From Flavobacterium nackdongense (GTDB lineage: Bacteria > Bacteroidota > Bacteroidia > Flavobacteriales > Flavobacteriaceae), in contig NZ_CP037933.1 of assembly GCF_004355225.1 (NCBI RefSeq), positions 4,153,228 to 4,217,227 on the forward strand: a stretch of 64,000 nucleotides of DNA, given 5' to 3'. The stretch's first letter is position 1. Each line of letters begins with the position of its first letter. The position numbers and the translations under genes are program-made. Shown one piece after another: positions 5,711-60,283 of the stretch. Under the pieces are notes generated by a model, which did not search any database, was not told where the DNA came from, and saw only the letters and a list, made by a program, of their open reading frames with translations.

Positions 5711-7543
5711 ATGAATTTTAAAACAGTTATTATTTTACTAATTTCTTTTTCAATTTTTGCTCAAGAAACTGACAAAATTGGTGGTTATCTTTTCGCACAT
5801 ATGACCAACGATGATTACGGAACCTTGCATTATTCAATCAGTAAAGATGGTTTGCATTGGAACTCGTTACGCAATGGGAAAAGAATCTTGGAAGACTACA
5901 AAGGCCACCCCGATATAATTACAGGACATGACGGCAAGTTTTATTTAGTGGGAAATCCAAAAGACGGCGGGAATAAAATTAGAATTTGGACCTCAACCGA
6001 TTTGCTGAATTGGGCGTTTTTAACGGATTTAAAACCTGATATGAGTCGTTTGCCCGAATTCGATTCAAAAGATTATTGGCATGGGGCACCGAAAATGTTT
6101 TATGACATCGACACTAAAAAGTACATCATCACCTGGCATTTTGCTACTAAAAACAGAAACAAAGTGTCGGCAGATGAATATTGGGGAAGTATGCGTACTT
6201 TATTTGTGACCTCCACCAATTTGAAAGAGATATCAATGCCCAAACGCTTGTTTGATAAAGATTTCGCCACCATAGACGTGATTGTCAGAAAATTCAATAA
6301 TTCCTATTATGCCCTATTGAAAGATGAACGCGCTCCAAGTCAAGACTGGCCAACCGGAAAATCTATTCGAATTGCTAAAGCAACAAATTTAGAAGGACCA
6401 TATAGCGAACCAAGTCCATCAATTTCTCCCAATTTCAGGGAAGCTCCTACTTTGATACCACAAGGTAACGGAAAAGGATATTATTTGTATTTTGAGCAAT
6501 ATCCAGGTATTCAATACGAAATGGCAATAGCAACAAACATTGAAGGGCCTTGGTACGATGGGTATGCCAATAGTTTCAGCCTTCCTAAAGAAGCAAGACA
6601 CGGTTGTATGTTGCCGCTTACTGAAGAACAATTTGAAAAATTGAATTCAACTTTTGGGGATTCAAATGATTTTAAAAATCAATCAAAATGGCTGTATGTT
6701 GGGTTTAAAGATCCAGGAGACAGAGGTTTGTGGTTTTCTACAAGCGAAGACGGTTATGTTTGGAATGAATTGAATAATGGCAAGCCTTGGGTAAATCCAG
6801 CTATTGGTATGAACCGCATGCGAGACCCATTTATCACTAGAGATCCTAGACAAGGATTTCATTTGTTATGGACCATTGGGAACCAAAAAATGGGCTATGC
6901 TCATTCTGATGATTTAGTGCATTGGTCTACACCACGAACAATCCCTATACTGGCTGATAATCCGAATGTAAAAAACGTTTGGGCACCTGAAATGTTCTAC
7001 GATCAAGCTTCCAAAAAATGGTTTATTTATTGGTCATCCACCATCAAAGGTGAATTTCCTGAAACTGAAGGACAAGTGAAAAATGATAAAAACCATCGTA
7101 TTTATTATATGACTACCGATGATTTTAAGAATTTTAGCAAGCCAACTGTTTTTTACAATCCGGGAATTCCGGTCATTGATGCTACAATTCTAAAAGAAGG
7201 GGATACTTTTTATATGGTTGTCAAAGATGAGCGAGACACCCCTTTGAAAAAAAATCTTCGCATTACAACGTCTAAAAATATTCTTGGCCCTTGGACTGAA
7301 TTGAGTGAGCCCATCACTGCTACATGGACAGAAGGCCCTTCTGTTTTTAAAAAGGAGGACACCTATCTTTTGTATTTTGATCATTATAATGGAGGAAAAG
7401 GCATGCAAGCATTGGAAAGTAAAAATTTGAAAGATTGGAAAGATATTTCAACAAAAGTTCAATTCGCAGCAGAATCCAAACATGGGTCATTCATAAAAAT
7501 AACCTCAGATGAATTTAATGCTTTAAAACGAGCCGAATTTTAA
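5711..7543 (+). CDS. Tandem double GH43-type five-bladed beta-propeller protein
   Basis: A signal peptide ending at SIFAQ is followed by two complete GH43-like propellers, about 22-310 and 325-608. The halves are recognisably duplicated: GTLHYSISKDGLHWNSL matches GLWFSTSEDGYVWNEL, and both end in a similar strand (KEARHGCMLPLTEEQFEKL and AESKHGSFIKITSDEFNAL). Candidate catalytic-base aspartates are D68 (HPDII) in the first half and D372 (RDPFI) in the second. GH43 enzymes remove alpha-L-arabinofuranosyl or beta-xylosyl units. It is nearly twice the usual single-domain length. It lies 20 bp before the next GH43 gene, so the two are probably co-transcribed. Whether both halves are active is not known. 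Confidence 0.85.
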   Translation: MNFKTVIILLISFSIFAQETDKIGGYLFAHMTNDDYGTLHYSISKDGLHWNSLRNGKRILEDYKGHPDIITGHDGKFYLVGNPKDGGNKIRIWTSTDLLNWAFLTDLKPDMSRLPEFDSKDYWHGAPKMFYDIDTKKYIITWHFATKNRNKVSADEYWGSMRTLFVTSTNLKEISMPKRLFDKDFATIDVIVRKFNNSYYALLKDERAPSQDWPTGKSIRIAKATNLEGPYSEPSPSISPNFREAPTLIPQGNGKGYYLYFEQYPGIQYEMAIATNIEGPWYDGYANSFSLPKEARHGCMLPLTEEQFEKLNSTFGDSNDFKNQSKWLYVGFKDPGDRGLWFSTSEDGYVWNELNNGKPWVNPAIGMNRMRDPFITRDPRQGFHLLWTIGNQKMGYAHSDDLVHWSTPRTIPILADNPNVKNVWAPEMFYDQASKKWFIYWSSTIKGEFPETEGQVKNDKNHRIYYMTTDDFKNFSKPTVFYNPGIPVIDATILKEGDTFYMVVKDERDTPLKKNLRITTSKNILGPWTELSEPITATWTEGPSVFKKEDTYLLYFDHYNGGKGMQALESKNLKDWKDISTKVQFAAESKHGSFIKITSDEFNALKRAEF

Positions 7544-7562: not shown

Positions 7563-9101
7563 ATGAAAACACTTTTACATACAGTACTACTTCTGGTTTC
7601 AATTGCTCTTTTTTCGCAAAAAGGAACAGTTGATAATGCAATAAATGAAGGTCAGATTATGGCAGATAGAGGCAATGGTTTTTACAAGAATCCAATATTT
7701 CCGGGTAATTACGGAGATCCTACATTGGTAAGAGTTAAAGATGATTACTATGTTGCCTTCAGTAGAACCAATGGTATTGTGATTTGGCATTCCAAAGATT
7801 TAGTCAATTGGAAACCAGTAGTTAGACATCGATTACCTGAAGGATACAATACGGTTTGGGCAATAGATTTGCAATATTTTGATGGTAAGTTTCACATTTA
7901 TATGCCTATTAAAGATTTTCCAAATAAGAAAGAAGAGGCATTTGGGAATTTTGTCATAATAGCTAAAAATCCCGAAGGACCATGGTCAGATCCGATCAAT
8001 TTAGAGATAGAAGCTCCAGGTTCGGATTATTCTGGGATTGATCCGGGATTTATTCAAACACCAAAAGGGGAGAAGTATTTGTATTTAAATCATGGTTGGG
8101 TGGTTAGTCTAAACAACGAAGGAACGAAAGCTGTATCAAAACCACAAAAGGTGTACGATGGTTGGAATTATCCTAATGATTGGGTTGTGGAGTGTAAATG
8201 TTTAGAAAGTCCAAAGTTATTTTACAAAGACGGATATTATTTTATGGTTTCTGCTCAAGGCGGTACAAATGGGCCTTCAACTGCTCATATGAGTATTGTA
8301 GCAAGAGCAAAACATCCTCTTGGACCTTGGGAAAATTCTCCTCACAATCCACTTACGCATACGTTTAGCCAAGAGGAAGCTTTCTGGCATCAGGGACACG
8401 GAACTGTTTTTGAAGGGGCTGATGGGAGTTGGTGGACAATTTTTCACGGAAGGAACAACAATTTTGTCGAAATGGGAAGACCTTGTTTGTTAATGCCTAT
8501 CGAATGGACAAACGACGGTTGGCCCATTCAGAAGATAGGTGTTAAATCGGATGATTTAATTCCAAAAATTAAAGGAGAAAATACAGGGCATGGCTTGGCA
8601 CTATCGGATAATTTTGATACAGAAACATTGGGAATGCAATGGTATTATGATAATGCAAAAAAGGAAAATTTCATTTCGGGCAATGGGAAATTGATTATGA
8701 AAGCCTCTGGCGAGAGCTTCCGATCGGCATCAGAGATTTATAATTTTGCTCCAAACGACAGTTATGAGATTATAGTGAAAATCCAAAGTGCTTCTAAAAA
8801 AACTTTGGCTGGCTTAAGAATGGGGTACGAAGGAATTGTAACCGACGGCGAAACAGTATCAATAGCAGAAGGGCCTGATTGGAGGCTTAGACAATCGGTT
8901 TATAAACTTAAAAATAAGAAAGCGGTATGGCTAAAAATCAAAAATAGCCGAAAAGACGTGAGTATGTTTTACAGTGAGGACGGGGCTAATTGGACAAAAT
9001 TTGATTGTTCCGTGCGTTCTCATGAAAGTTACAAGTATTCGTTGTTTAGCTATGGAACAGGCGAAGCAGTCTTCGAAACTTTTAAGTATAAAGGGTTATA
9101 A
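7563..9101 (+). CDS. GH43 enzyme with C-terminal concanavalin A-like domain
   Basis: Signal peptide (SIALFSQ), GH43 propeller about 38-340, and a beta-sandwich about 350-512 (LSDNFDTETLGMQW) of the kind appended to beta-xylosidases and arabinofuranosidases. The expected catalytic triad is visible: D52 (YGDPTL), D160 (SGIDPGF) and E215 (CLESPKLF). Likely reaction: removal of terminal arabinofuranose or xylose from oligosaccharides in the periplasm. It follows the double-GH43 gene by 20 bp and precedes the GH-A-like gene by about 33 bp, so it sits inside one transcription unit. The precise subfamily is not assigned. Confidence 0.88.
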   Translation: MKTLLHTVLLLVSIALFSQKGTVDNAINEGQIMADRGNGFYKNPIFPGNYGDPTLVRVKDDYYVAFSRTNGIVIWHSKDLVNWKPVVRHRLPEGYNTVWAIDLQYFDGKFHIYMPIKDFPNKKEEAFGNFVIIAKNPEGPWSDPINLEIEAPGSDYSGIDPGFIQTPKGEKYLYLNHGWVVSLNNEGTKAVSKPQKVYDGWNYPNDWVVECKCLESPKLFYKDGYYFMVSAQGGTNGPSTAHMSIVARAKHPLGPWENSPHNPLTHTFSQEEAFWHQGHGTVFEGADGSWWTIFHGRNNNFVEMGRPCLLMPIEWTNDGWPIQKIGVKSDDLIPKIKGENTGHGLALSDNFDTETLGMQWYYDNAKKENFISGNGKLIMKASGESFRSASEIYNFAPNDSYEIIVKIQSASKKTLAGLRMGYEGIVTDGETVSIAEGPDWRLRQSVYKLKNKKAVWLKIKNSRKDVSMFYSEDGANWTKFDCSVRSHESYKYSLFSYGTGEAVFETFKYKGL

Positions 9102-39604: not shown

Positions 39605-41058
39605 TTCACCGCTTTTTTTAATTGGTTCAACAAAGCGTTGCTTTTATCAAAAGAAGTATGCAACAAATCCATCAATTCCAAACTATTGTATTCGTGGGTT
39701 TCTTCCTGTTTGGTTGGGTTTTTTATGTCCAAGTCGTAATTACGGTCAATGATGGTTTTGATATCCACCTTCCAGGCAATCTCACTTTCCTTGCGGTCAT
39801 TCCACCAGGTTTTAATTGGGTTGAATTCCTTGGCTTGAATGGGTTTGGTTTTGTTGTAGGCTTTTTGTCCTTCGGGTAATTTGTGTTCGTAATACCAAAC
39901 TTCTTTAGTAGGTGTGCCTTTGGTAAAAAACAATAAATTGGTGGCTACCGTGGCATAGGGTTGGAACACAGAGTTGGGCAAACGAATAATGGTATGCAGG
40001 TTGCAATCTTCCAACAGTTTTTGTCGTACTCTTTGTTTTACACCGTCGCCTGTCAAGGAACCATCAGGTAACACAATTCCGGCACGACCGCCTTGTTTCA
40101 ATAAGTGTATCATTAAAATCAGGAACAAATCGGCACTTTCTTTGGTTCTAAAGTTTTGCGGGAAGTTGGTTTCGTTATTGTTCGCCACAATACCGCCAAA
40201 AGGAGGGTTGGCCAAGATAGCGTTTACGCGGTTTTTCTCGGTAAAACTGCTTAAGGGTTTGTCCAAAGCATCACCAAAACGAATGTTGGGCACTTCCATA
40301 TCGTGGAGAATCAGGTTGGTTGTCGCCAGCAAATAGGGTAGTGGTTTGTATTCCCAACCTTCAATGTTTTCGGCTATGCTTTGGCGATCTTCGACGCTGT
40401 TGGCTTGTTTTTTCAAATGCTCGATGGCGCAGGTTAGATAACCACCCGTTCCGCAAGCAGGGTCTAATATTTTTTCACCCAATTGTGGGTTGATCATTTC
40501 GGTAATAAAGGAAGTGATGGCACGAGGAGTATAGAACTCGCCACTTTTACCCGCACTTTGTAATCCTTTGAGGATGCTTTCGTATAGTTCCCCAAAAGCG
40601 TGACGGTCTTTGGCAATGTTAAAGTCCATTTCGTTGAGCTTGTTCAACACCTTGCGGATGTTAATGCCGCTTTTCATATAGTTGTTGTTGCCTTCGAAGA
40701 CTTCGCGGACAATCAATGCTCGTCGGTTTCCTGTACTAACATCAATATTTCGCAAGGCAGGAAACAATTGGCGGTCTACAAATTCCAATAGTTCGTCGCC
40801 TGTCATTCCTTCGTCATCGCCCGCCCAATTGCCTTTTTCTTTCACCCAATGGAATAGGTCGGGAATTGGAGAGGTATAATTGTCGTTGAGCAGTTCGAGT
40901 TCTTTGTCTTTGTCCGAGAATATTTTTAGAAAGAGCATCCAACCGAGTTGCTCGATGCGTTGGGCATCACCGTTGAGTCCGGTGTCTTGCCACATTATGT
41001 TTTGAATTGATTTTAAGATGGAGGATATGTTGGACATTATTATGTTGTTAAAAGTCAA
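39601..41058 (-). CDS. hsdM: Type I restriction-modification methyltransferase subunit HsdM
   Basis: HsdM adds a methyl group to adenine (N6) at the sequence chosen by HsdS. The helical N-terminal domain (about 10-145) is followed by the Rossmann methylase: FYTPRAITSF, then motif I D199-P-A-C-G-T-G-G for S-adenosylmethionine and catalytic motif IV N284-P-P-F. The start at 41058 overlaps the upstream FRG gene by 11 bp. A start at 41037 (MSNISSILK) avoids the overlap and matches the usual N-terminus, so I consider it equally likely. The 3' end overlaps the DUF1016 start (ATGA). The length of 478-485 residues is normal for the family. Confidence 0.95.
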   Translation of the reverse strand: MTFNNIIMSNISSILKSIQNIMWQDTGLNGDAQRIEQLGWMLFLKIFSDKDKELELLNDNYTSPIPDLFHWVKEKGNWAGDDEGMTGDELLEFVDRQLFPALRNIDVSTGNRRALIVREVFEGNNNYMKSGINIRKVLNKLNEMDFNIAKDRHAFGELYESILKGLQSAGKSGEFYTPRAITSFITEMINPQLGEKILDPACGTGGYLTCAIEHLKKQANSVEDRQSIAENIEGWEYKPLPYLLATTNLILHDMEVPNIRFGDALDKPLSSFTEKNRVNAILANPPFGGIVANNNETNFPQNFRTKESADLFLILMIHLLKQGGRAGIVLPDGSLTGDGVKQRVRQKLLEDCNLHTIIRLPNSVFQPYATVATNLLFFTKGTPTKEVWYYEHKLPEGQKAYNKTKPIQAKEFNPIKTWWNDRKESEIAWKVDIKTIIDRNYDLDIKNPTKQEETHEYNSLELMDLLHTSFDKSNALLNQLKKAVK

Positions 41059-42049
41059 AATTTAAAAAATGTTGAAATGATTTATTGGCAATCATTTCTT
41101 CTTGAGGATAAATGAAATCTTTATTAATTGGAAATCTTTTTCCTTTGGTTAATTTAAGTTTAATGTATTCATATAATGATTTATGGATATTTAAACATAT
41201 AATTTTGGGTAAGTAATAAGGACTGCCTTCAACTTTAGTCTTATCTCCTTTAAAAAAAAATTCTAAAGGTTTATTTTCACTTGAATTAAAAACAAAAAGT
41301 CCTTTTTGATTAATAATATTTAGATTTTGCTGGTTCCAAACCAAATTGAATGAGGGTCTATTACGCAAACTAAATGCAAATCCATTCCTTTTATAACCTG
41401 GAATTTGAGCAATTTTTATTTGGTGTAAAGTATTATAGTTAAAATTTTGTAAATTTTCGATAACATTATCAGAATTAACTTTTGGATGTTTATCTAATAT
41501 TTTATCAATTTGATCTAAGCCTGATTGAACATATACAAGATAGTTTGTAAGTTCTTGCCATTTAGTATTTATAATATAAATTGAGCAATAATTATCAATG
41601 TCATTATCCGAGTCAGCAGATTTTAGGCCATCTGTTGCAAAAAACAGAGCATTTTCAAAACTATAGGTCCAATCTAACAATGGGGTAGGAGCACCATAGT
41701 GTTGAAGGAAACTAAGTATCGAAATGTCAAATGGAGGTTGACCGAAAGCATTAAAAAACTTTTCTAATAACCCATTTTGCCAATTCTTTGCATTATTTAT
41801 TTCTATTTCAATAAATTCATCATATGTTCTTCCCAATTTATGAAGTTCTATGTTTAACCATTTCCTTTGTGATGAGTTATATAATTTATACTTTGAGTCT
41901 GGACAGCCTCTAAAAACTAGACCATATTTTGATTGTTCTTTTTTATATTTTTCAATATAAATGTCTAATTGCTCTTTTGAATCAATATTTATTTGTTCAA
42001 ATGCTTCATCTTTATCTTTTAGAGTATTGTAAGTTTCTAATTTTGCCAT
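41048..42049 (-). CDS. FRG-domain protein inside the restriction operon
   Basis: The FRG domain is named for its F-R-G signature, seen here as GLVFRGCPD (R47, G48). The second half of the signature, FLQHYGAPTPLLDWT (about 114-128) and ALFFA, follows as expected. The rest, about 150-333, is helical without a motif I know. FRG proteins are frequent in defence loci of bacteria and have no agreed activity. The gene is placed between hsdR and hsdM, overlapping the hsdR stop by one base and hsdM by up to 11, so it belongs to the same polycistron. It could be an added effector or a regulator of the restriction complex; this is inference. Confidence 0.85.
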   Translation of the reverse strand: MAKLETYNTLKDKDEAFEQINIDSKEQLDIYIEKYKKEQSKYGLVFRGCPDSKYKLYNSSQRKWLNIELHKLGRTYDEFIEIEINNAKNWQNGLLEKFFNAFGQPPFDISILSFLQHYGAPTPLLDWTYSFENALFFATDGLKSADSDNDIDNYCSIYIINTKWQELTNYLVYVQSGLDQIDKILDKHPKVNSDNVIENLQNFNYNTLHQIKIAQIPGYKRNGFAFSLRNRPSFNLVWNQQNLNIINQKGLFVFNSSENKPLEFFFKGDKTKVEGSPYYLPKIICLNIHKSLYEYIKLKLTKGKRFPINKDFIYPQEEMIANKSFQHFLNFDF

Positions 42050-44496
42050 TATGCTTTTCGATATAATTCGTTCTCCAGTTCTCTAACTGCCTCTAAATAA
42101 TGTTGTTTGTCACCAAAGTGTTGGATAATTTCAATAGGTGAACCAAAATCATCAAAGGGTTTTACGCGCAATACATCAATGTTTTCGATGTTTTCTACTC
42201 CTTCATCTGCATATTTGTCTAATAAGGTTTCCAATACTTTACGGGCCTGTTCTCCATATTTCGTGAAGTAGTTTCGTTTTTTGACGTTGTTGGCACGTTC
42301 CTGTCGGGTTAGTGGCGGCTGATCATAAGCCACGTGGCAAATCAGGTCAAATAAATCTACTTGTTTATCTACTGCATCATATAAAGCTTCGACCATTATG
42401 CCCTGTTGCTGCAATTCTTTGATAATGGCTTCTTTTTTGTCGGCCTGATTCCAGGTCAAAAGGAAGTCTTCCAAGGAAGCATATTTACCTTGGATAATCT
42501 CTTTGGTATGGTCTTTTAAACTGATGGTGATTGGTTTCCCATTAGAATCAAAAAATAATTCACGACTGACCAAAACCGAAACATCGACACCATTGATGTA
42601 TTGTTTGGGTCTGTATTGGTATTCTGGGCGGGGTTCGCTAATAGGATTTTTAATCTTTGGAGGCACTATAATAATTTCGTCGCCAGATACATCATCAATT
42701 ATAGTAGTATCGTCTTCTTCTTCCTCGTCGATTATAGTAGTCAAATCGGTTTCTTCCGTAATGGGTTTAACTCGCAACGGTTCACCATCAAAAGCAGGAT
42801 CCGCAAAATTATCAGTAGCATTTCTGAAATCCAAAATGGTAAAATAGAGTTTGTCGTATTCTTCGTTGATACGAGTGCCGCGACCTACAATTTGCTTGAA
42901 TTTGGTCATCGAATTGATGTTGGCATCCAATACAATTACCTTGCAGGTTTGTGCATCGACACCGGTAGTCATCAATTCTGAAGTAGTGGCAATAACCGGG
43001 TATTTTTCTTCAGGATTAATGAAATTGTCCAATTCCCGTTTGCCTTCTTCATTGTCACCCGTGATTTGCATCACGTATTTGTGATTCACAGCAACTAAAT
43101 CGGCATTGTGTTTGGCAATGGCATTGCGCATTCTTTCGGCGTGGTCAATGTCCACACAAAAAATAATGGTTTTGGCAAAACGGTCTAATCCTTTGAGGTA
43201 TTCGGTTACTTTTTGGGCAATACTATCGGTACGTTCGTCAATGACCAGTTTCCTGTCGAAATCTTTACGGTTGTAAATGCGGTCTTCTATAGGAACGCCT
43301 TCTTTATCAGTTTTGCCCTGTTGAGGTCGGTAGCCTTCTGAATCCACATTTAGCGCTACTCGAATTACTTTATAGGGTGCTAAGAACCCATCATCAATTC
43401 CTTGTTTTAGAGAGTAAGTATAGACCGGTTCCCCAAAGTATTCGGTGTTACTGGTTTCTTTGGTTTCTCTGGGTGTAGCGGTTAAACCAATGTGAGTGGC
43501 CTTGCTGAAATAAGTTAAAATTTCCCTCCAGGCACTATCTTCATTGGCGCTGCCTCGATGACACTCATCAATAATAATCAGGTCGAAAAAGTCAGGAGAA
43601 AAATCTTTGTAAGCATCTTCAATGCCCGGTTCATTATTGGTTAATCCTTGGTACAGTCCCAAGAAAACCTCAAAGGCTTTATCGGAAGTGTCGATACCTC
43701 TTTTTTTGTTGCTCACCAATTCGTCCTTCCCATTTCCGTTTGTGATGACTTTCTTTTTAATGATCGTCATTTTATCCTTGAAGTGCTTGAAATCTCCTTT
43801 TCGGGTTTGATCTACAAGAGCGGTTCGGTCGGCAAGAAATAGAATTCTTTTTTTGGTTCTGGCTTTCCACAACCGATAAATGATTTGGAAAGCGGTGTAA
43901 GTTTTTCCGGTTCCGGTGGCCATCACCAATATGATTCGGTTTTGGCCATTGGCAATGGCTTCGACAGCGCGGTTCACGGCAATTTGCTGGTAGTATCTTG
44001 GTTTGCGTCCCGAACCATCGGAGAAGTATTTTTGCAAGGCTAATTGTTCCCCTTCAGGATTGACAATACCTTTGTATTTTTTGTATTTATCCCATAGCAT
44101 TGCAGGGGTAGGGAAGTCGTCAATAGACAATTCCGTTTCAATAGAAGCATCGGTTGCTGTTCGGTCGTGAAATAGAAATCCATCGCCATTGCTGCTGAAA
44201 ACACAAGGAATGTCTAAGGTTACCGCATAGCCCAAGGCTTGTTGAATGCCCGCTCTAATGGAATGTTTGTTGTCTTTAGCTTCAATTACGGCTACGGGAT
44301 TATCCTGATAGTACAGGATATAATCGGCACGTTTTCGTTCGCCTCTTGCGGTTAATTTGCCTCTGACATAGATTTTGCCGTCTGTAAAAAAAACTTCTTC
44401 TAAAATTTGTTTGTGTAGATCCCATCCTGCTTTTTGGAGAGCTGGAGTAATAAATTTTGAACAAATATCTCTTTCCGATAAATCTTTCTTGTTCAT
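42049..44496 (-). CDS. hsdR: Type I restriction endonuclease subunit HsdR
   Basis: HsdR is the ATP-driven translocase and nuclease. Order of parts: N-terminal nuclease domain (about 1-120) with D58 and E72-A-K74 of the PD-(D/E)XK site in ADYILYY to IEAKD; helicase core with Walker A A193-T-G-T-G-K198-T and DECH box D310-E-C-H313; [13 protein letters not shown] of motif VI; and an EcoEI-like C-terminal domain with an acidic stretch [12 protein letters not shown] near residue 595. The length of 815 residues fits the EcoEI/EcoKI-like class. It is the first gene of the leftward operon and has a small palindrome about 55 bp upstream. Confidence 0.95.
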
Positions 44497-44618: not shown

Positions 44619-44957
44619 CTACACTATTCTCGTTTTCCTTCTGGAGTTGATTTGATAGAGATATTCAATAAAATCGGGGAGTTCTATCAGAGGTAAAAGG
44701 CCGACGGGTTCCAAGGGCATAGGATGTAAAAGGATTTGTCGTATGTGTTTGCGGAAGGCTATTTCGCCAATAATTTGTATGACAATCCAATCGATATTGG
44801 CTTCGAGGTCCTCGAATTGTTGGAGCTCGTTGTAATCGGGGAGGTACATATCGATTTTGAGTTGCTTGGTTGGGATGTTGTAATCAGCTAAAGCGATTTG
44901 TATGTCACTGATTTTGATCCGAAGTGTGGGGATAATGTGGGCTATATACAAAAACAA
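44619..44957 (-). pseudogene. Probably 5'-truncated hypothetical gene
   Basis: The 112-residue frame can start only at TTG (44957) or far inside at MYLPDYNEL. Directly upstream lies a strong terminator-like hairpin, so a proper 5' end is missing. The protein part (DIQIALADYNIPTKQLKIDMYLPDY, WIVIQIIGEIAFRKHIRQILLHP) is well formed and looks like the end of a larger soluble protein. I do not recognise the family. It may have been cut by an insertion at the junction near 44,958-45,015. Alternatively it is a short real gene that uses TTG. Confidence 0.4.
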
Positions 44958-45015
44958 AAAACCCTAACTAATTGATTTTCAATCGTTAGGGTTTTAATTT
45001 AGCGGAGAAAGAGGG
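44955..45015. other. Terminator-like hairpin beside a tRNA 3'-end-like fragment
   Basis: AAAACCCTAAC (44958-44968) pairs with GTTAGGGTTTT (44985-44995), and the inner ATTGA/TCAAT extends the stem. Just right of it, AGCGGAGAAAGAGGG (45001-45015) resembles the complement of a tRNA acceptor and T-arm end, but the match stops there and no tRNA body follows. The rest of 45016-45255 shows no gene. This could be an old attachment site, but the evidence is weak. Confidence 0.3.
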
Positions 45016-45255
45016 TCTAATTTCCTGCTTCTAATGCGTTGTATTTCAGTATTATATAATTGAATTTAAAATTGGGTAACCGAATTTACCCCCTTTTTAT
45101 CGTTTAGAATTCCATTAATTTGTGAAGTGTAAAAGTACACAATTAACTAGATAAATCATAATTTAAAGGGTAAAGAATACTAAAAAATGAACTAGTTGTT
45201 TAACTATGTGTTTTTCTACAATGGTTTAAAATGAGACAGGGTCTTTATCCACATT

Positions 45256-45459
45256 TTATCCAAAAATCAAGTGAGCTACTTGTTCATATTTTATTCCTGT
45301 GTACAAACAGAACTCATCTATCGTTAAGAACTCATTTTCGAGCTTGTTGAGGTCGGTTTTGACCTTTTGCATTAATCTGGTACTTTGGCGGTAACTTTTG
45401 CCTGTTATACGCTGTATGTCCTTCGGATAAATGCAAACCCTCTGTTTTTCGTTTTTCAT
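45256..45459 (-). CDS. Small HTH-like DNA-binding protein
   Basis: A 67-residue basic protein without signal or membrane segment. IYPKDIQRITGKSYRQSTRLMQKVK has the spacing of a helix-turn-helix, and LTIDEFCLYTGIKYEQVAHLI could be a second one. It resembles small excisionase- or regulator-type proteins found beside Bacteroidota mobile elements, but I cannot name a family. It is transcribed away from the phage-like cassette beginning at 45770, with a 310-bp gap between them, so it could control that cassette. The function is inferred from composition and context only. Confidence 0.6.
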   Translation of the reverse strand: MKNEKQRVCIYPKDIQRITGKSYRQSTRLMQKVKTDLNKLENEFLTIDEFCLYTGIKYEQVAHLIFG

Positions 45460-45769
45460 ACACTATCTATACCTTTGACTAGGCTTTGACTAGCTTCAAA
45501 GTGCTAGGTGACAAGTCAAAAATTTTGACAAAATTAAGATATTCTAAGATACTATTATTTGCTGCAAGTTACACCCCTCTCGGGTGTTTTTTTATGTGCA
45601 TTTGTGTCGATTTAAGCCATTTGTGTCATTTTTGGACATATGGAACTGTGCTTGCTTTTATTTTCTGTTAAATAGGCTAAAATTTGTTCTCGAAATCAAT
45701 TGAAAGATGTTGCAACGGATGATGATTGAGGGAGTTTTAAATGATTTAATAATCTAAATTTTAGGAATT
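45460..45769. other. Divergent 310-bp spacer with one hairpin
   Basis: No gene is seen. ACACCC (45571-45576) and GGGTGT (45582-45587) form a small GC-rich stem followed by a T run on the + strand, like an intrinsic terminator or attenuator ahead of the 252-residue gene. Direct TTTGTGTC repeats occur near 45,604-45,630. Confidence 0.45.
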
Positions 45770-46528
45770 ATGGCAAGGCAAAAAGGCATAATTAAGTTGA
45801 AAGGTACTATCGGAGATATTACCTTTTACAAAACCCAGGACGGGCATTTGGCCCGCGAAAAAGGGGGCATCGACGCCAGCAGAATCAAAAGTGATCCTGC
45901 GTTTCAGAGAACGCGTGAGAACGGTTCTGAATTTGGAAGAGCCGGGACAGCCGGTAAGATTTTGAGAACGGCTTTGAGAGCTTTGCACTTGAATTCTGCT
46001 GATGGCAGAATGGTGAGCCGATTGACTCAGCAAATGGTTAAGGTAATCCAAGCTGATGTTATCAGCGTAAGAGGATTGCGAAATGTGATTGATGGTGAGG
46101 CGGAATTGCTTACTGGCTTCGAATTCAACATCAGAGGAAAACTGGGCACCAGTTTATTTGCACCTTTTGTGGGCGCAATTGATCGTGTATCTGGAGACAT
46201 CACTGTTGATTTGGATTCGTTTATTCCGGCGAATATGCTTGCAGCACCAAGTGGAACCACTCACTTTAAAATCATTTCTGCAGGAGCAGAAATTGATTTT
46301 GAGAATGAAACTTTCGTAGAAGCTCATTCAGAGAGTGCCATTCTACCTTGGGATGGAACTGCTACAGCAGCCATCAACCAAGTGAACACTGTCACTCCAG
46401 CAAGCACAAAACCGTTGTTTTTGGCTTTGGGAATTGAATTTTACCAAGAAGTGAATGGACAAATGTACCCATTGAAAAATGGTGCTTACAACCCATTGGC
46501 GTTGGTGAAAGTTGATGGTGGAGTCTAA
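45770..46528 (+). CDS. Conserved flavobacterial protein of phage-like cassette (unknown function)
   Basis: A 252-residue soluble protein with a very basic, repeat-free N-terminus (MARQKGIIKLKGTIGDITFYK, then RIKSDPAFQRTRENGSEFGRAG) and a beta-rich C-terminal half (about 95-250). I have no family name for it. The opening resembles small proteins encoded next to phage-like lysis genes in Bacteroidota, and it is followed by DUF5675 and two small membrane proteins on the same strand. It could be a structural or DNA-binding protein of a reduced phage-derived unit. No signal peptide, membrane helix or catalytic motif is visible. Confidence 0.6.
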   Translation: MARQKGIIKLKGTIGDITFYKTQDGHLAREKGGIDASRIKSDPAFQRTRENGSEFGRAGTAGKILRTALRALHLNSADGRMVSRLTQQMVKVIQADVISVRGLRNVIDGEAELLTGFEFNIRGKLGTSLFAPFVGAIDRVSGDITVDLDSFIPANMLAAPSGTTHFKIISAGAEIDFENETFVEAHSESAILPWDGTATAAINQVNTVTPASTKPLFLALGIEFYQEVNGQMYPLKNGAYNPLALVKVDGGV

Positions 46529-46563
46529 GATAGTGGTCAGTGATCAGTTTTTAGTGTTCAGTA

Positions 46564-46980
46564 ATGATACTATTTTTAACTAGAACTTATTTCCCTGAAG
46601 GATGCAATGGTAAACTCGAATGCGAGGGCAAATTAATCTGCCATACTATTGAATTGCCTTGGAAGAATAACGAAACGAAGGTTTCCTGCATTCCGGAGGG
46701 GAAATATTTTATTAAAAAGCGGTACAGCAAGAAGTTTCAATGGCATTTGGAAATAGTAGATGTAAAAAACAGAAGTTTAATTCTGTTTCACCCAGCCAAT
46801 AATGCCTTAAGAGAATTGAATGGTTGTATTGCTCCCGTAACTAAACTTTCTGGGCCCGGATTGGGTCTGATGTCTCGAACAGCTTTTGTCAAGTTGAAAG
46901 ATTTGGTTTATCAAGCTTTGGATCACAAAGAAAGTATTGAGTTGATTGTTCAATCTGGATTCCTGACTGTGGAAGGATGA
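46564..46980 (+). CDS. DUF5675-family protein
   Basis: A 138-residue protein with the full DUF5675 pattern: LTRTYFPEGCNGKL at the start, ICHTIELPWKNN, SCIPEGKY, and LFHPANNALRELNGCIAP near 78-95. The family occurs in phages and phage-derived gene clusters and is suspected to act on the cell envelope, but its activity is not proven. The conserved His, Cys and Asn residues suggest a catalytic or metal site. The last residues (SGFLTVEG) run into a GGATTCCTGAC-like repeat that continues after the stop (CAGTTCCTGCATTCGCGGGA), so the C-terminus has been altered by a repeat. Confidence 0.75.
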   Translation: MILFLTRTYFPEGCNGKLECEGKLICHTIELPWKNNETKVSCIPEGKYFIKKRYSKKFQWHLEIVDVKNRSLILFHPANNALRELNGCIAPVTKLSGPGLGLMSRTAFVKLKDLVYQALDHKESIELIVQSGFLTVEG

Positions 46981-47003
46981 CAGTTCCTGCATTCGCGGGA
47001 ATG
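46952..47003. repeat. Dispersed intergenic repeat overlapping the DUF5675 stop
   Basis: GGATTCCTGAC, GGATGACAGTTCCTGCATTC and GCGGGAATGAC form an element with the paired TTCCTGC/GCGGGAA arms known from many Bacteroidota and other genomes. It covers the end of the DUF5675 gene and the spacer to the next gene. Confidence 0.55.
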
Positions 47004-47020
47004 ACAAAAAAAGAGAAAAG

Positions 47021-47257
47021 ATGAATATTATAAAACGAGTGAAAGCTCCAACGCCTAAATTTTTTAAAGTGCTTCGAAATATTGGATTGGCTTTGGCTGC
47101 CATTGGCGGAACGATCCTGGCTGCTCCAGTGGCTTTGCCAGTTGTTTTGACTACTGTTGGTGGTTATTTGGCTGTTGCAGGTGGAGTTGTCTCGGCGGTA
47201 AGCCAGCTGACCACAGGGGAAGCGGTTTTGGCGCCAAGCAAAGATGACCAACAGTAA
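47021..47257 (+). CDS. Small membrane protein, holin-like
   Basis: A 78-residue protein with a basic N-terminus (MNIIKRVKAPTPKFFKVLRN), two hydrophobic segments (IGLALAAIGGTILAAPVALPVVL and GGYLAVAGGVVSAVSQL) and a polar tail. The size, charge pattern and neighbours are like those of phage holins, which open the inner membrane. It follows DUF5675 by 40 bp and overlaps the next small gene by 14 bp. No sequence family is recognised, so the holin role is inference. Confidence 0.6.
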   Translation: MNIIKRVKAPTPKFFKVLRNIGLALAAIGGTILAAPVALPVVLTTVGGYLAVAGGVVSAVSQLTTGEAVLAPSKDDQQ

Positions 47258-47420
47258 CCATACCCTGATGGGGACAGCCGGAGGTACATTTTTGAGTGTT
47301 TTGCCGAATTTACATTCGGAAGATGTTATAAAAACGATTCTATTAGCAGCTCTTGGAGCGATTGTCAGTTTTGTAATATCAATGCTACTCAAATACCTCA
47401 TCAAGAAGCACAAAAAATAG
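47244..47420 (+). CDS. 58-residue single-helix membrane protein
   Basis: The ATG at 47244 lies within the last codons of the previous gene (14-bp overlap) and the frame ends at TAG 47418-47420. The protein starts MTNSNHTLMGTAGG, has one strong transmembrane helix (TILLAALGAIVSFVISMLL) and a basic end (KYLIKKHKK). It is below usual length cut-offs, but the overlap, the coding-like composition and a terminator directly after it support a real gene. With the 78-residue protein it could form a two-part membrane-lesion unit as in phage lysis cassettes. Confidence 0.6.
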   Translation: MTNSNHTLMGTAGGTFLSVLPNLHSEDVIKTILLAALGAIVSFVISMLLKYLIKKHKK

Positions 47421-47457
47421 TCTAGTTCTAGTTGTGGTGACCTTTGGATTAGATTTT

Positions 47458-47497
47458 AAAAATGCCCTTTCCTACTTTGGATTGGGCATTTTTTTTT
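47458..47497. terminator. Bidirectional terminator after the phage-like cassette
   Basis: AAAAATGCCC (47458-47467) pairs with GGGCATTTTT (47484-47493), and a T run follows. It separates the rightward cassette from the leftward 59-residue gene. Confidence 0.85.
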
Positions 47498-47675
47498 AGA
47501 TTTCTTCGAAAATATTTAGGGTTACTTCCTCAATTACCACTTTTGCATTTCTGCCATATAATCCATTGTATTTGGCACAATCCAGGGCTTTAATCCGGCT
47601 GTCGAATATTCCGTAAAAGACTCTGGAGATTTTGGTTTTCCAAATGTCGGTTTGGTAAAGGATAAATAGTTTCAT
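47496..47675 (-). CDS. 59-residue conserved-looking small protein
   Basis: The frame from ATG 47675 to TAA 47496 reads MKLFILYQTDIWKTKISRVF then YGIFDSRIKALDCAK and ends EEVTLNIFEEI. It has a beta-alpha-beta look, normal codon use and no membrane helix. The stop overlaps the terminator. It lies 30 bp after the start of the leftward 140-residue gene's downstream end, so the two may be co-transcribed. Function is unknown; a small adaptor or antitoxin-like protein is possible, but nothing in the sequence proves it. Confidence 0.55.
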   Translation of the reverse strand: MKLFILYQTDIWKTKISRVFYGIFDSRIKALDCAKYNGLYGRNAKVVIEEVTLNIFEEI

Positions 47676-47704
47676 AGCTTAAATATATTAGGTTAAAACA
47701 CAGT

Positions 47705-48127
47705 TTATTTCTTGCAATAGCGGTACAAAATGGCTTTGCGGATGTCATTTATCAGGAGAATATCCTCTTTGTATTGCTTTTCTTTTTTTTCCAGAAGTTT
47801 GAGGGCCTCCACATTCTTTAAATGCTGCTCGTGTTCGACCATCATTAGGCTTGCTTGTGGATTAAATTCCTTTTGGAAGTCTGGAAGTCGTAAAAAGGGA
47901 ATCACGGAACCGATTAAAAATGGGTGCCAGAATTTTGTCTGCCACAAACTATAGGCAATGAAAAAAATGTTTTCGCAATCTTTTTCTTTCTCAAAAATGA
48001 CTACGAAACTGTTTGTGAAGGGCTCTTTTTGGGGTTTTCCGCTGTTCATCCCCTTGTTAAGTATGAATAAGTGGGGTTTTGTGTACAGGGTATCTTTTCG
48101 GTGGGTTTTGATGATAAAATTGGTCAT
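47705..48127 (-). CDS. Conserved flavobacterial protein (DUF6943-like)
   Basis: A 140-residue soluble protein: THRKDTLYTKPHLFILNKGMNSGKP at the start, FVVIFEKEKDCENIFFIAYSLW in the middle, then LIGSVIPFLRLPDF and a helical, lysine-rich end (LKNVEALKLLEKKEKQYKEDI). I recall this as the DUF6943 group of Flavobacteriia, which has no known function, but I cannot confirm it. It is followed by the 59-residue gene on the same strand. Its upstream side opens directly into the gene-less hairpin region, so its promoter should lie there. Confidence 0.65.
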   Translation of the reverse strand: MTNFIIKTHRKDTLYTKPHLFILNKGMNSGKPQKEPFTNSFVVIFEKEKDCENIFFIAYSLWQTKFWHPFLIGSVIPFLRLPDFQKEFNPQASLMMVEHEQHLKNVEALKLLEKKEKQYKEDILLINDIRKAILYRYCKK

Positions 48128-48270
48128 AGGACTGGATTTAAAAACGGGTTAACTTTCCAATTTTTCGCAGGGTTTCGGCTGAAAGACTCATGTGCCTCGC
48201 TGCGCTCGCCACACATAAAATTTTTCAAAAGACAAAAAAAGGAAAAAAAAGAAAGTCGTTTTATTAGTGG

Positions 48271-48426
48271 AGGTTTCAAGAAAGTCAAGTTTTTTTATAA
48301 AAAAATACTACCCGACGCGTCCTTAGAAACGGAGGCGTGAATCTTTAAGCAAAAGTTGTTGTGAAATGATGAGGGTGGAGATTTTTTTATAAAAACCGGA
48401 GGCCTGAACTTTACTTTCTTGAAACT
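48271..48426. repeat. Long inverted repeat left of the hairpin array
   Basis: AGGTTTCAAGAAAGTCAAGT (48271-48290) is nearly complementary to ACTTTACTTTCTTGAAACT (48408-48426), with T-runs and ATAAAAA segments inside. It is the first long dyad of the 48,128-50,890 gene-less region, followed by a stretch of almost pure T and A near 48,440-48,475. Confidence 0.65.
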
Positions 48427-48509
48427 GGAGCTTACCTTTACTTTCTTTTTTTTTATTTTTTTTTATTTTTCAATCAACGCCGTAGTGTCCTTAATTAACT
48501 AATCCCAAA

Positions 48510-50262
48510 ATGTTCTTTTATAGTCGGATGGTTGTGGAAAGGGTATGGATTTTTAAAACAGAAAACACTAAAACTACCATTCCAATTTTTTTTCTGTATT
48601 AAAAATCCATACTCTTTCTTCCCGTTTGATTTTGTGGGTGCAGATCATTGCTTTATTGGAGTCGTATTTTTAAGGAATCAACTTTGTTAGCGATGGTCTG
48701 CACTCACAAAAACAATGCAAATACTTCCTATCTTTTACCTATTAGAGAATGTTCTGTTATAGTCGGATGGTTGTGGAAAGGGTATGGATTTTTAAAACAG
48801 AAAAACACAATAACTTCCATTCCAATTTTTTTCTGTTTTGAAAATCCATACTCTTTCCTGGAATTGATTTTGTGGGTGCTGGTCATTGCTTTATTGAAAT
48901 ATTTAATTTACCAATCGACGTTGTGAGCGATGGGCTGCACTCACAAAAACAATGCATAATAATTCCTAGTGTTGGTGGCAGTAGCTCGAAGCAAGTGTAT
49001 TGTTTTTTTATTTGCTTACGGGGTGTTTCTGATTGCGTTTGTGGAAAAGTGGATGCCATAGACTTTAATCAAAGATGATACTTGATACTAATCAAAGTGG
49101 TGTTATGGACCTGCATGGCATCCGCTTTTTCGCAAATGCAATTACTGGGGATTTTGTGGCAAATGAAAAAACGATACTCTTGCTGGCACTTTTGATTTTG
49201 TGGGTGCAAGCCATTGCTTAATTGGAATCTTTAATTTAGCAAATGGTGTTGTAAGTGATGGTCTGCACTCACAAAAGCAATGCATTATCATTTCTAATGT
49301 TGGTGGCAGTAGCTCGAAGCAAGTGTATTTTTTTTTATTTGCTTACGGGGTGCTTCTGATTGCGTTTGTGGAAAAGTGGATGCCATAGACTTTAATCAAA
49401 GATGATACTTGAAACTAATCAAAGTGGTGTTATGGACCTGCATGGCATCCGCTTTTTCGCAAATGCAATTACTGGGGATTTTATTGCAAATGAAAAAACG
49501 ATACTCTTGCTGGTTTTTTTGATTTTGTGGGTGCAGACCATTGCTTTATTGGAATCTTGAATTTACCAATCGACGTTGTAAGTGATGGTCTGTACTCACA
49601 AAAACAATGCATTATCATTCCTAGTGTTGGTGGCGGTAGCTCGAAGCAAGTGTATTGTTTTTTTATTTGCTTACGGGGTGTTTCTGATTGCGTTCGTGGA
49701 AAAGTGGATGCCATAGACTTTAATCAAAGATGATACTTTAAACTAATCAAAGTGGTGTTATGAACCTGCATGGCATCCGCTTTTTCGCAAATGCAATTAC
49801 TGGGGATTTTATGGCAAATGAAAAAATGATACTCTTGCTGGCCCTTTTGATTTTGTGGGTGCAGACCATTGCTTTATTGGAATCTTGAATGGTAGTAGGC
49901 AACGTTGTAAGTGATGGTCTGCACTCACAAAAACAATGCATTATAATTCCTAGTGAGGCGGGGCAGTAGCGCGGGCAAGGGTATTGTTTTTTTTTTATGC
50001 AGATTGAGGAGTTAAAGATTGTTTTTGTGGAAAAGCTGGTGCCTGATTTACTATTAAGCGTACAGAAGGAAAAATAGATTTTTATTTTAGCACGTTATGG
50101 CAACTGCTTTTCCGGAAAAACAATTGCTCCTAAATAAATGGCAAAAAAAAAAAACAATACTCTTGCTGGCCTTTTGATTTTGTGGGTAGAAAAAATGGCT
50201 TTTACCCTAGGCAAATCAACTACACATCAAAGCCATTTTTTCTACTCACAAAATCAATGCAA
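48510..50262 (+). repeat. Tandem array of long covarying hairpins (non-coding)
   Basis: Three hairpin types follow each other. Type A (48537-48618 and 48777-48858) contains GGGTATGGATTTTTAA and repeats every 239 bp. Type B starts GATTTTGTGGGTGCAG and ends with TGCACTCACAAAA (48628-48711, 48866-48948, 49194-49276, 49521-49603, 49849-49932 and, with a changed stem, 50176-50255). Type C starts TGCGTTTGTGGAAAAG and ends GCTTTTTCGCAAATGC (49034-49140, 49361-49467, 49689-49795, and a diverged one 50019-50129). From about 48,950 on, B and C alternate in units of about 328 bp. No convincing gene is found in this stretch. The asymmetry of stem mismatches suggests that a + strand RNA folds. Confidence 0.85.
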
Positions 50263-50364
50263 AGACTTCCGATTTCACTACTAAGTTGCTAAAGACCATT
50301 ATTATTTATCAGCGATACGGAATCGTTTTGTTAAGGATATAGTTTCTACGTGAGGAATATTTGT

Positions 50365-50461
50365 GGTTTGTGAAGGGCGGCAGTTTGAGCAGCTCGTAAC
50401 GGATGTTTTAATAGTAGGATAGATTTTCTGAGCTGCTCAAACTGCTGTCCTGGAGCAAACC
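50365..50461. repeat. Large perfect-arm hairpin (type D)
   Basis: CAGTTTGAGCAGCTC (50381-50395) is perfectly complementary to GAGCTGCTCAAACTG (50430-50444), and GGTTTG/CAAACC pair further out. It follows the array but has a different sequence, and TTGAGCAGCT recurs in the dispersed repeat at 60,097. Confidence 0.75.
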
Positions 50462-50587
50462 ACCGGAGCGTTGGCAGAGCGGCTGTTTTACATAAATGAT
50501 ATTATAGCTTCATTGCAAAAACCAAAAAAACAATATAAAAGCTTTGTAATGAACTATAATACTCAATTATGTAACACAGCTTGGGGG

Positions 50588-50656
50588 AAAAAATTACTGG
50601 CGCGAGTCACGCAGTGTACGTGTTTTTGTCTCAAAAACCGTGACAGTAATTTTTTT
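50588..50656. repeat. Hairpin E with A/T-rich arms
   Basis: AAAAAATTACTG (50588-50599) pairs with CAGTAATTTTTT (50644-50655). Between the arms, CACGCAGTGTACGTG can form a smaller stem. An ORF crosses this hairpin, but its composition is not protein-like. Confidence 0.65.
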
Positions 50657-50770
50657 AGGAGCGTTGGCCAGGAGTGCCAATCGAAGTGTAAAACGTCCTA
50701 TTCACCGCGAACGAAAAAAACGTTATCACCACCACCTACGTAATTAGAGAAATTAAGCCAATTAAAACTT

Positions 50771-50825
50771 GAGTTTAGGAATACTTGGACTAAACGAAAG
50801 TTTTGTGCAGCTGAATGAGATAATG
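50771..50825. repeat. 55-bp dispersed repeat, copy 1 (left of metal operon)
   Basis: This segment (core AGGAATACTTGGACTAAACG, ending GCAGCTGAATGAGATAATG) is identical over 55 bp to 59268-59322, in the same orientation. A diverged copy lies at 60097-60145. It ends 66 bp before the stop of the P-type ATPase gene. Confidence 0.92.
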
Positions 50826-50836
50826 ATTAAGAAAAC

Positions 50837-58943: not shown

Positions 58944-59379
58944 AGCTGTAAAAGTAGGTATTTTATTTAATAGCCAATATATAATACTTCATTAATTTGC
59001 GGGTTAATGCTTTAGGATGAAATACTATTATTGAAAGAGTATTCTATTTTTATAGGGATTAACCCATTCGATAAACTCAGGGCAGGCTGTGAAGCAAACA
59101 AAAACTTCGCCCTTCGACTGTGCTACCATTGACGTTTTTTTTGAGTAGGGCTTCGTCCTTCGTCTACGCTCAGGATGACAGCTCAGCCTGACAAAATAGA
59201 TGTCATTTTATATTGCTTTTTTAGAATAAAAATTATACCTCAGGATGACGCTGCTCAGGGTGACAGTGAGTTTAGGAATACTTGGACTAAACGAAAGTTT
59301 TGTGCAGCTGAATGAGATAATGGGTTAGAATTACTGATTCTCTCCTTATTTAGAGTAAGTACCTTCTTTTCGCAGGATT
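58944..59379. other. Gene-less spacer made of dispersed repeats
   Basis: No ORF fits. Between 59,060 and 59,267 occur phrases such as TTCGATAAACTCAGGGCAGG, CTTCGACTGTGCTACC, CTACGCTCAGGATGACAG and CTCAGGGTGACAG, variants of the CTCAGGATGAC intergenic repeats common in Bacteroidota. The 55-bp dispersed repeat follows at 59268-59322. The promoter of the metal operon should lie near 58,950-59,010. Confidence 0.55.
59268..59322. repeat. 55-bp dispersed repeat, copy 2 (right of metal operon)
   Basis: Identical to 50771-50825 over all 55 bp and in the same direction, so the two copies bracket 8.4 kb that contain the complete metal-efflux operon. No transposase or integrase is encoded between them. 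Confidence 0.92.
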
Positions 59380-59817: not shown

Positions 59818-60283
59818 TTGTTGCTGCCTTTGAATTTGTAATCATTTAAGGACAGAAATTTAAGATACTTTTTTGGAATATGAATACAAATGGTGTTTTT
59901 AATTTTTAATTTTTTTTTAGGTTTTTGTTTTTGTATTCGATATTACCTGAAACCACAAGTAGATTAGGGAATATTTTGCTGCATAGGACCAGGATCATTA
60001 ATTGAAGTGTAAAAATTCTTTTTACCAGTAACGGAAAAAATTTTTTCGTTAAGAATAAAGGTATTTAGTGAAATGAAGCAAGCAAAAATTGATGCTAGGA
60101 ATACTTGGACTAGGAGCGATTTTTGAGCAGCTGAATGAGCTAATTGGGAATCATTACTGAAGCTATTTTTTTAATCATTTAATTATCTCAAAACTTAGCT
60201 TGTAAATTAATAATGTTTTCTTTTTACTCTGTCATAAATTGGCAGAGCAATTAATTATCTTTGAAAAATAAATCAAAAAGAGT
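59818..60283. other. Repeat-containing spacer with promoter of the WYL gene
   Basis: No gene is seen in 466 bp. The segment 59,985-60,145 resembles the layout at 50,670-50,825: a TTGAAGTGTAAAA block, a hairpin with AACGGAAAAAATTTTTTCGTT (60,030-60,050), then the dispersed repeat. TATCTTTG at 60256-60263 matches the Bacteroidota -7 box TAnnTTTG, 20 bp before the WYL start; the -33 box is weak. Confidence 0.5.
60097..60145. repeat. Diverged third copy of the dispersed repeat
   Basis: It shares AGGAATACTTGGACTA and GCAGCTGAATGAG with the two 55-bp copies. The middle is replaced: GGAGCGATTTTTGA stands in place of AACGAAAGTTTTGT. It has the same orientation as the others. Confidence 0.8.

Follow-up and report, generated by a model that had tools for sequence, protein, structure and literature searches.

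Several non-coding RNAs with elaborate or repeated structures are known from mobile genetic elements. GOLLD and ROOL are large, elaborately folded non-coding RNAs of phages and prophages, whose function is described as unknown (PMC12286853, PMC7567579). The sgm-sRNA of Salmonella Genomic Island 1 (SGI1) is presented as essential for mobilisation of the island (PMC9299015); by that report, mobilisation can depend on an RNA of the island. STAXI elements are described as tandem pseudoknot units near ssb, topoisomerase, antirestriction and integrase genes (PMC2864571), and abundant non-coding transcripts without open reading frames (ORFs) are described for the phage satellites PLE and for phage ICP1 (PMC7567579). 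Here we analyze an array of long hairpins in Flavobacterium nackdongense, located in a stretch of 64,000 nucleotides (nt) of contig NZ_CP037933.1 (positions 4,153,228 to 4,217,227), which is referred to as the window and to which coordinates refer unless stated otherwise. With about even probability, the array represents the enlarged middle of a gene for a large, structured non-coding RNA, and this gene is part of a conserved module at one end of tRNA-Ser integrative islands. The RNA would be carried by chromosomal islands of Flavobacterium and relatives and is apparently non-coding. The module also encodes P252, a protein of 252 amino acids (aa), and a DUF6943 protein.

In the initial annotation, eleven or more tandem hairpins with arms of ∼19-27 nt and unit lengths near 239 and 328 bp were placed at 48510-50262. 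Profile matches located the hairpins at this place, in the order A-B-A-B-C-B-C-B-C-B-C-B across 48535-50275, and the measured spacing of the direct repeats was 237-239 and 327-329 bp, with one of 321 bp. The arms turned out to be somewhat longer than proposed, 27-31 nt in A and B; in hairpin C, the inner arm measures 27-30 nt and the outer arm ∼26 nt. The interval was correct for the array and too short for the conserved structure, which includes a head and a tail domain. Overall, the structured stretch of ∼2.5 kb (48197-50690) is composed as follows; the hairpin copies are supported by their arms and profile matches, the first four also by repeat spacing and the C copies also by the C alignment.

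48197-48470, plus strand: RNA head domain, a long A-rich/U-rich helix around GUGGAG and UACUACCC motifs (nhmmer E 6e-64; consensus fold of 81 heads)
48535-48628, plus strand: hairpin A, copy 1
48630-48731, plus strand: hairpin B, copy 1
48774-48865, plus strand: hairpin A, copy 2
48868-48956, plus strand: hairpin B, copy 2
48968-49208, plus strand: composite hairpin C (outer and inner helix), copy 1
49196-49284, plus strand: hairpin B, copy 3
49302-49535, plus strand: composite hairpin C, copy 2
49523-49611, plus strand: hairpin B, copy 4
49623-49863, plus strand: composite hairpin C, copy 3
49851-49940, plus strand: hairpin B, copy 5
49950-50188, plus strand: composite hairpin C, copy 4 (C')
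50178-50275, plus strand: hairpin B, copy 6 (B')
50366-50687, plus strand: RNA tail domain, three hairpins with covariation in 35 sequences
50691-50829, plus strand: conserved right border of the module ("end" motif); similarity stops at ∼50825-50829 in many relatives

The absence of a convincing gene was borne out, as the longest stop-to-stop frame in 48197-50690 comprises 98 aa on the plus and 115 aa on the minus strand, and the unit spacings are mostly not multiples of three. When hairpins were called with a symmetric score, in which G.U and A.C are treated alike, 13 strong hairpins were found in 48128-50829 and none in each of 40 dinucleotide shuffles. The fold of the whole stretch 48197-50690 reached -942 kcal/mol on the plus strand (mean of 20 shuffles -635, z -21.5). 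The minus strand also folds strongly (-718 kcal/mol, z -15.7), because inverted repeats fold on both strands. Some of the tandem copies are recent, with 300-nt stretches that are 93-94% identical. A reading of the last tail hairpin as a terminator was rejected because variants of it lack a U-run. To our knowledge, the RNA, if transcribed, would be among the largest structured bacterial RNAs.

Pairing was then quantified in alignments of related loci (numbered with the prefix L). In the tail (35 sequences), 96.7% of the cells were paired, and 29 of 62 pairs had changed on both sides yet still paired. For hairpin C (43 sequences), the values were 95.1% and 22 of 58 pairs. These double changes exceed the controls in both elements and provide the covariation which the initial annotation had proposed as a check. 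None of 500 shuffles reached either value in the tail, nor did any of 500 for hairpin C. Structures slid along the alignment were at most 49% paired in both cases, although this control is lenient because the structures were derived from the same alignments. The tail alignment comprises 35 of 42 full-length matches (left out: L020, L029, L040, L042, L056, L078 and L089, ∼100 nt extra), the C alignment 43 of 50 matches (left out: L020, L025, L037, L069, L081 and the minus-strand copies in L042 and L043).

A strand preference was visible in the mismatches. In the paired arms of 33 array stretches (31 relatives, the window and L009), the symmetric score yielded 320 G.U against 24 A.C on the plus strand (binomial p 3e-67, though the cells are not independent). 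The window alone contributed 57 G.U and 2 A.C, whereas 456 kb of flanking sequence gave 11 and 19, respectively. G.U accounts for ∼8% of the standard pairs in the arrays (320/3964), a rate that is what RNA shows. Strong hairpins occur at 2.40 per kb inside the arrays versus 0.03 outside. Folded as a consensus, 18 of the 31 measured relatives gave -482 kcal/mol on the plus and -397 kcal/mol on the minus strand, with at least two Watson-Crick types in 122 of 350 pairs and 458 of 6185 cells unpaired. The strand preference of the head is weak (81 sequences; -96 versus -93, G.U 271, A.C 61). Judged from these alignments, folding of the array is under clear selection, and the plus strand is the kept and better folded one.

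We infer that the plus strand is transcribed, away from the DUF6943 gene. The pattern TT[TG]-spacer-TAnnTTTG, which we take to be the Bacteroidetes promoter consensus, points towards the array in 42 of 87 regions upstream of DUF6943 and towards DUF6943 in none of the 87. Little weight is given to this count, since homologous, T-rich regions were compared and the motif is often part of the head. Of 81 heads, 42 contain TAnnTTTG itself in their 3' part, and 65 do if A is allowed as last base. The array RNA may start after or inside the head.

Among the identities put forward in the initial annotation, a non-coding RNA array is the best supported because of the homologous arrays described below, the strong covariation and the plus-strand bias. 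The idea of a recombination substrate found no support for the hairpins themselves, although the module sits at the attachment-site end of an integrative element. Likewise, nothing speaks for an msr-like structure. No reverse transcriptase was seen by inspection among the ORFs of at least 60 aa in window 41-64 kb and of at least 100 aa in L096-L097, where no dedicated profile search was made, and the module proteins match no reverse transcriptase family in Pfam, NCBIfam and PHROG scans. We agree that the array is not a CRISPR, since it has units of ∼239 and 328 bp and no unique spacers between short identical repeats; that it is not an rRNA/tRNA cluster is in line with the repeat analysis and the Rfam scans. 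An integron attC array was also considered and rejected, as there is no gene-length frame between the hairpins and the integrase is of the arm-binding phage type beside tRNA-Ser.

Homologous arrays, another check suggested at the outset, are present in many genomes. The same genome has two further copies and two degraded tail fragments. These solo pieces of tail and right border (L099:4314-4591 and L100:5276-5683) are intergenic, and no P252 or DUF6943 was found among the surrounding ORFs. A search with P252, whose gene lies ∼2 kb upstream of the array, gave 80 further loci, mostly from Flavobacterium (80 of 566 relatives found). One or more strong hairpins follow within 7 kb at 61 of the 81 loci L011-L091; the other 20 had none, which in some cases is due to the end of the contig. 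When 87 sequences were searched with profiles derived from 18 relatives, 68 matched for the head and 50 each for hairpin C and the tail. The orders head-A-C-B-tail-end (14 loci) and head-A-B-C-B-tail-end (11 loci) were the most common, 21 loci had the head alone, and nine had extra A or C units, the window with the most. Thus, domain order is kept in most loci although repeat number varies. The array of the window is the longest among the profiled loci, and the stretch from DUF6943 to the right border measures 1.0-1.7 kb in 23 of 31 measured relatives. Since the relatives mostly carry shorter orders, the window array is taken to be an expanded version of a shorter RNA.

Within the genus, P252 is present in 62 of 121 sampled genomes and the RNA tail model in 34, so that the module is widespread by both measures. 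Of these 34 genomes, 29 have P252 and five do not; conversely, the tail model is not in 33 of the 62 P252 genomes. Neither P252 nor DUF6943 had a match among 50,697 phage records. Among 72,556 plasmid records P252 had one match and DUF6943 none, and P252 was found in one and DUF6943 in six IMG/VR contigs. Comparison of window 44-52 kb with Rfam (cmscan, E ≤1) gave 24 microRNA-family matches and one VrrA match, all below gathering scores, and five related loci (84 kb) gave nothing at gathering score. Searches of Rfam 15 and of open-licence PMC papers turned up no entry or description of this RNA. The small RNA Rfp18 of F. psychrophilum was considered as a candidate and set aside; what is available of its description (PMC9723704) gives no sign of identity with this RNA.

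The left border of the module consists of 14 nt that match the 3' end of tRNA-Ser in inverted sense. This core, with one mismatch allowed, was detected on the left side of P252 at 49 of the 81 loci. A copy of the tRNA-Ser 3' end at the left border predicts an intact tRNA-Ser at the far end of the island. Indeed, three such cores exist in the genome, at window position 45002 and at genome positions 4020683 and 31923, and the last one is the 3' end of a tRNA-Ser(TGA) gene. A tyrosine integrase (PF00589 E 1e-14, with Arm-DNA-bind_5) starts 270 bp from this core. With an integrase beside the tRNA gene at one end and a copy of the tRNA 3' end at the other, the element has the form of a tRNA-targeting integrative island. 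If the single contig is circular, as assumed, the island would measure ∼50.9 kb and lie in tandem behind another one. The module and its borders, the head-array-tail layout and the island ends can be read directly from the DNA.

Seven other single-contig genomes contain 19 exact cores, 12 of which were examined. One core is the tRNA-Ser(TGA) gene in six of the seven; in G051, neither of the two cores examined (of five) is a tRNA gene. The island model held in four genomes (G010, G045, G119 and G166), which have the intact tRNA-Ser core plus isolated cores; G073 and G112 have no core other than the tRNA gene. For six isolated cores examined, P252 lies ∼0.7 kb away in L138, L140 and L142, and none is in reach in L131, L132 and L141. 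Coordinates add one isolated pair of core and P252 each in G010 and G119. In G045, P252 is oriented the other way and adjoins the tRNA gene itself. Among the ORFs to the left of the core, the largest group comprises 15 members (two are pieces in L048), and all three that were scanned (L014, L015 and L023) are integrases. The cargo of the island includes type I restriction, GmrSD, an AAA protein, DUF4238 and a cation-ATPase/efflux cluster. Just to the left of the attachment core, an FRG-domain protein (41048-44496, minus strand), which matches the PADLOC candidate PDC-S15 (E 3e-129), adjoins the R subunit of a type I restriction system. In L016, a DUF6266 gene (6449-7099, plus strand; PF19781 E 2e-96) lies just left of the core, with relatives in L032, L035 and L066; by eye only, its N-terminus resembles that of P252.

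The conserved block extends from ∼44925 to 50829 and has sharp ends on both sides in many relatives. Besides the RNA, it contains a 67-aa gene, P252, DUF5675, a small hydrophobic protein, variable cargo and DUF6943 on the opposite strand:

44925-44941, plus strand: TGTGGGG-type direct repeats followed by a terminator-like hairpin; left border kept in several relatives, motif once in the window
45002-45015, plus strand: attachment core, 14-nt copy of the tRNA-Ser 3' end (complement), left end of module and island (core search)
45256-45459, minus strand: 67-aa protein inside the conserved block, no Pfam or PADLOC match
45770-46528, plus strand: P252, 252 aa, function unassigned by family
46564-46980, plus strand: DUF5675 protein (PF18925 E 5e-32; phrog_1501)
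47021-47257, plus strand: TM78, small hydrophobic protein conserved at this place, probably a membrane protein to judge from its sequence only
47705-48127, minus strand: DUF6943 protein, divergent from the RNA (PF22105 E 7.5e-55)

The TGTGGGG-type repeats probably serve the preceding island as arm-type sites of its integrase. At some loci, the small protein and DUF6943 are separated by several kb, which means that other sequence is inserted there. The right-border motif recurs at 59267-59321 and 60013-60144 (plus strand), and second copies were also seen in L015, L023 and L080. These are direct repeats flanking cargo, possibly cassette borders or an insertion hot spot.

The family of P252 is very large and has no name; of 8000 candidates scored, 7110 reached E ≤0.001. 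P252 matched no Pfam, NCBIfam or PHROG family, and no Pfam domain occurred among the 120 matches listed. Its AlphaFold model (mean pLDDT 80.4) has a helical N-terminal half and a beta-sandwich C-terminal half, with the N-terminal 17 residues below pLDDT 50. In a second P252 subfamily, a staphylococcal-nuclease-like gene (PF00565) is divergent from P252 (L010:11326-11850, L091:7415-7906, L042:6652-7134). L091, the sole IMG/VR contig with P252, has a Mu-type portal gene (PF06074 E 2e-66) ∼6 kb from P252 (portal and P252 at 871-2139 and 8001-8807), and therefore a prophage link of this subfamily is possible.

DUF6943 was searched in 196 genomes of the order. Over the cut-off, 28 loci were obtained, three of which belong to this genome; in 25 of the 28, the RNA head adjoins DUF6943 directly on its upstream side and is divergent from it. 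Of the three loci without head, L122 is a genuine miss, and for L117 and L125 the upstream sequence is lacking. Some of the loci with DUF6943 and head come from other families, and of those L107, L108, L110 and L118 have the head without strong hairpins. The DUF6943 alignment excludes L042, L048, L055 and L082. From these genomes, the neighbourhood of head and divergent DUF6943 spans several families of one order. In a Marivirga plasmid, the head is accompanied by P252, DUF5675 and the small protein but by no detectable DUF6943; the head is therefore not simply a leader of DUF6943.

Arm sequences change while pairing is kept, the numbers of A, B and C units vary, and DUF6943 is a near-constant neighbour. 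For these reasons we favour an island-encoded scaffold RNA. The long hairpins would be repeated docking sites, each binding one copy of a protein, with DUF6943 or P252 as candidates, so that repeat number could grow without loss of function. The resulting RNA-protein particle would serve upkeep or transfer of the island. A bolder version, which we put forward only tentatively and consider unlikely, is a new class of giant modular island RNAs whose expandable hairpins dock P252 and DUF6943 into a particle for island mobility or packaging, so that the mobile element would bring its own RNA scaffold.

The pairing results alone do not separate RNA from single-stranded DNA. The hairpins might instead fold in single-stranded DNA and act in replication or transfer of the island, as a loading signal, a single-strand origin or a promoter of the leading region. 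In favour of this, the module is found at the attachment end of an integrative element, G.T is a mild mismatch in DNA too, and tandem structured motifs near DNA-handling genes have been described (STAXI, PMC2864571). However, the share of G.U with few A.C is RNA-like, head and tail are elaborate with conserved unpaired motifs, and no relaxase was seen among the island ORFs inspected, part of whose proteins were scanned. We consider a DNA structure unlikely. Selfish inverted-repeat DNA, REP- or MITE-like and multiplied in the module without function, was already disfavoured and is highly improbable: the recent tandem copies and the two solo fragments elsewhere in the genome would suit it, yet compensatory changes across species, the fixed place behind DUF6943 and the strand bias do not, and the solo fragments derive from the degraded tail and end rather than from the array.

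Two further explanations accept an RNA and assign it another role. Long near-perfect helices are good substrates of RNase III, and the near-perfect helices of 27-31 bp and the variable repeat number would fit a precursor that RNase III or a similar enzyme cuts into many small RNAs regulating by base pairing. Arms that change with pairing kept are unexpected for fixed targets, for which no search was made, and this role seems quite unlikely to us. Alternatively, the double-stranded array could be a decoy that titrates an RNA-binding defence or counter-defence protein of host or phage. Expansion of the array would raise the capacity of such a decoy, and the islands carry defence-type cargo (type I restriction, GmrSD, FRG/PDC-S15), but conservation of head and tail exceeds what a decoy needs. 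We know of no such decoy target and regard this explanation as very unlikely. If the RNA is transcribed, the puzzle of large mobile-element RNAs such as GOLLD and ROOL would gain a culturable host genus with natural repeat-number variants, a neighbour gene that is nearly constant (DUF6943) and a defined island in which excision and transfer are measurable.

Compared with the described systems, the putative Flavobacterium RNA would resemble the transcripts of PLE and ICP1 in being an RNA of a mobile element without ORFs. As far as described, their hosts are Vibrio and its phage. Like STAXI, as outlined in its report, the array consists of structured units in tandem near DNA-handling genes, but these are plain long hairpins with head and tail domains instead of pseudoknots. 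With the sgm-sRNA it shares being encoded by an integrative island. The sgm-sRNA, by its description, is small and adjoins oriT and mpsAB, features by which it is set apart; no mobilisation proteins were recognised among the island proteins scanned here. Closest in kind are GOLLD and ROOL, likewise large, elaborately folded RNAs on mobile elements. Their setting is that of phages, whereas a phage neighbour was recognised here only in L091, most flanks not having been scanned for phage genes. GOLLD and ROOL are also often located near tRNA islands, while tRNA-Ser is here the integration site and not a tRNA island. Multimers or cages made of RNA alone are a further characteristic of GOLLD and ROOL. 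Unlike GOLLD, ROOL and OLE, the Flavobacterium RNA is without match to Rfam covariance models. In contrast to GOLLD and ROOL, it resides in tRNA-Ser integrative islands of Flavobacteriales, is larger, and is built around a repeatable array of long hairpins.
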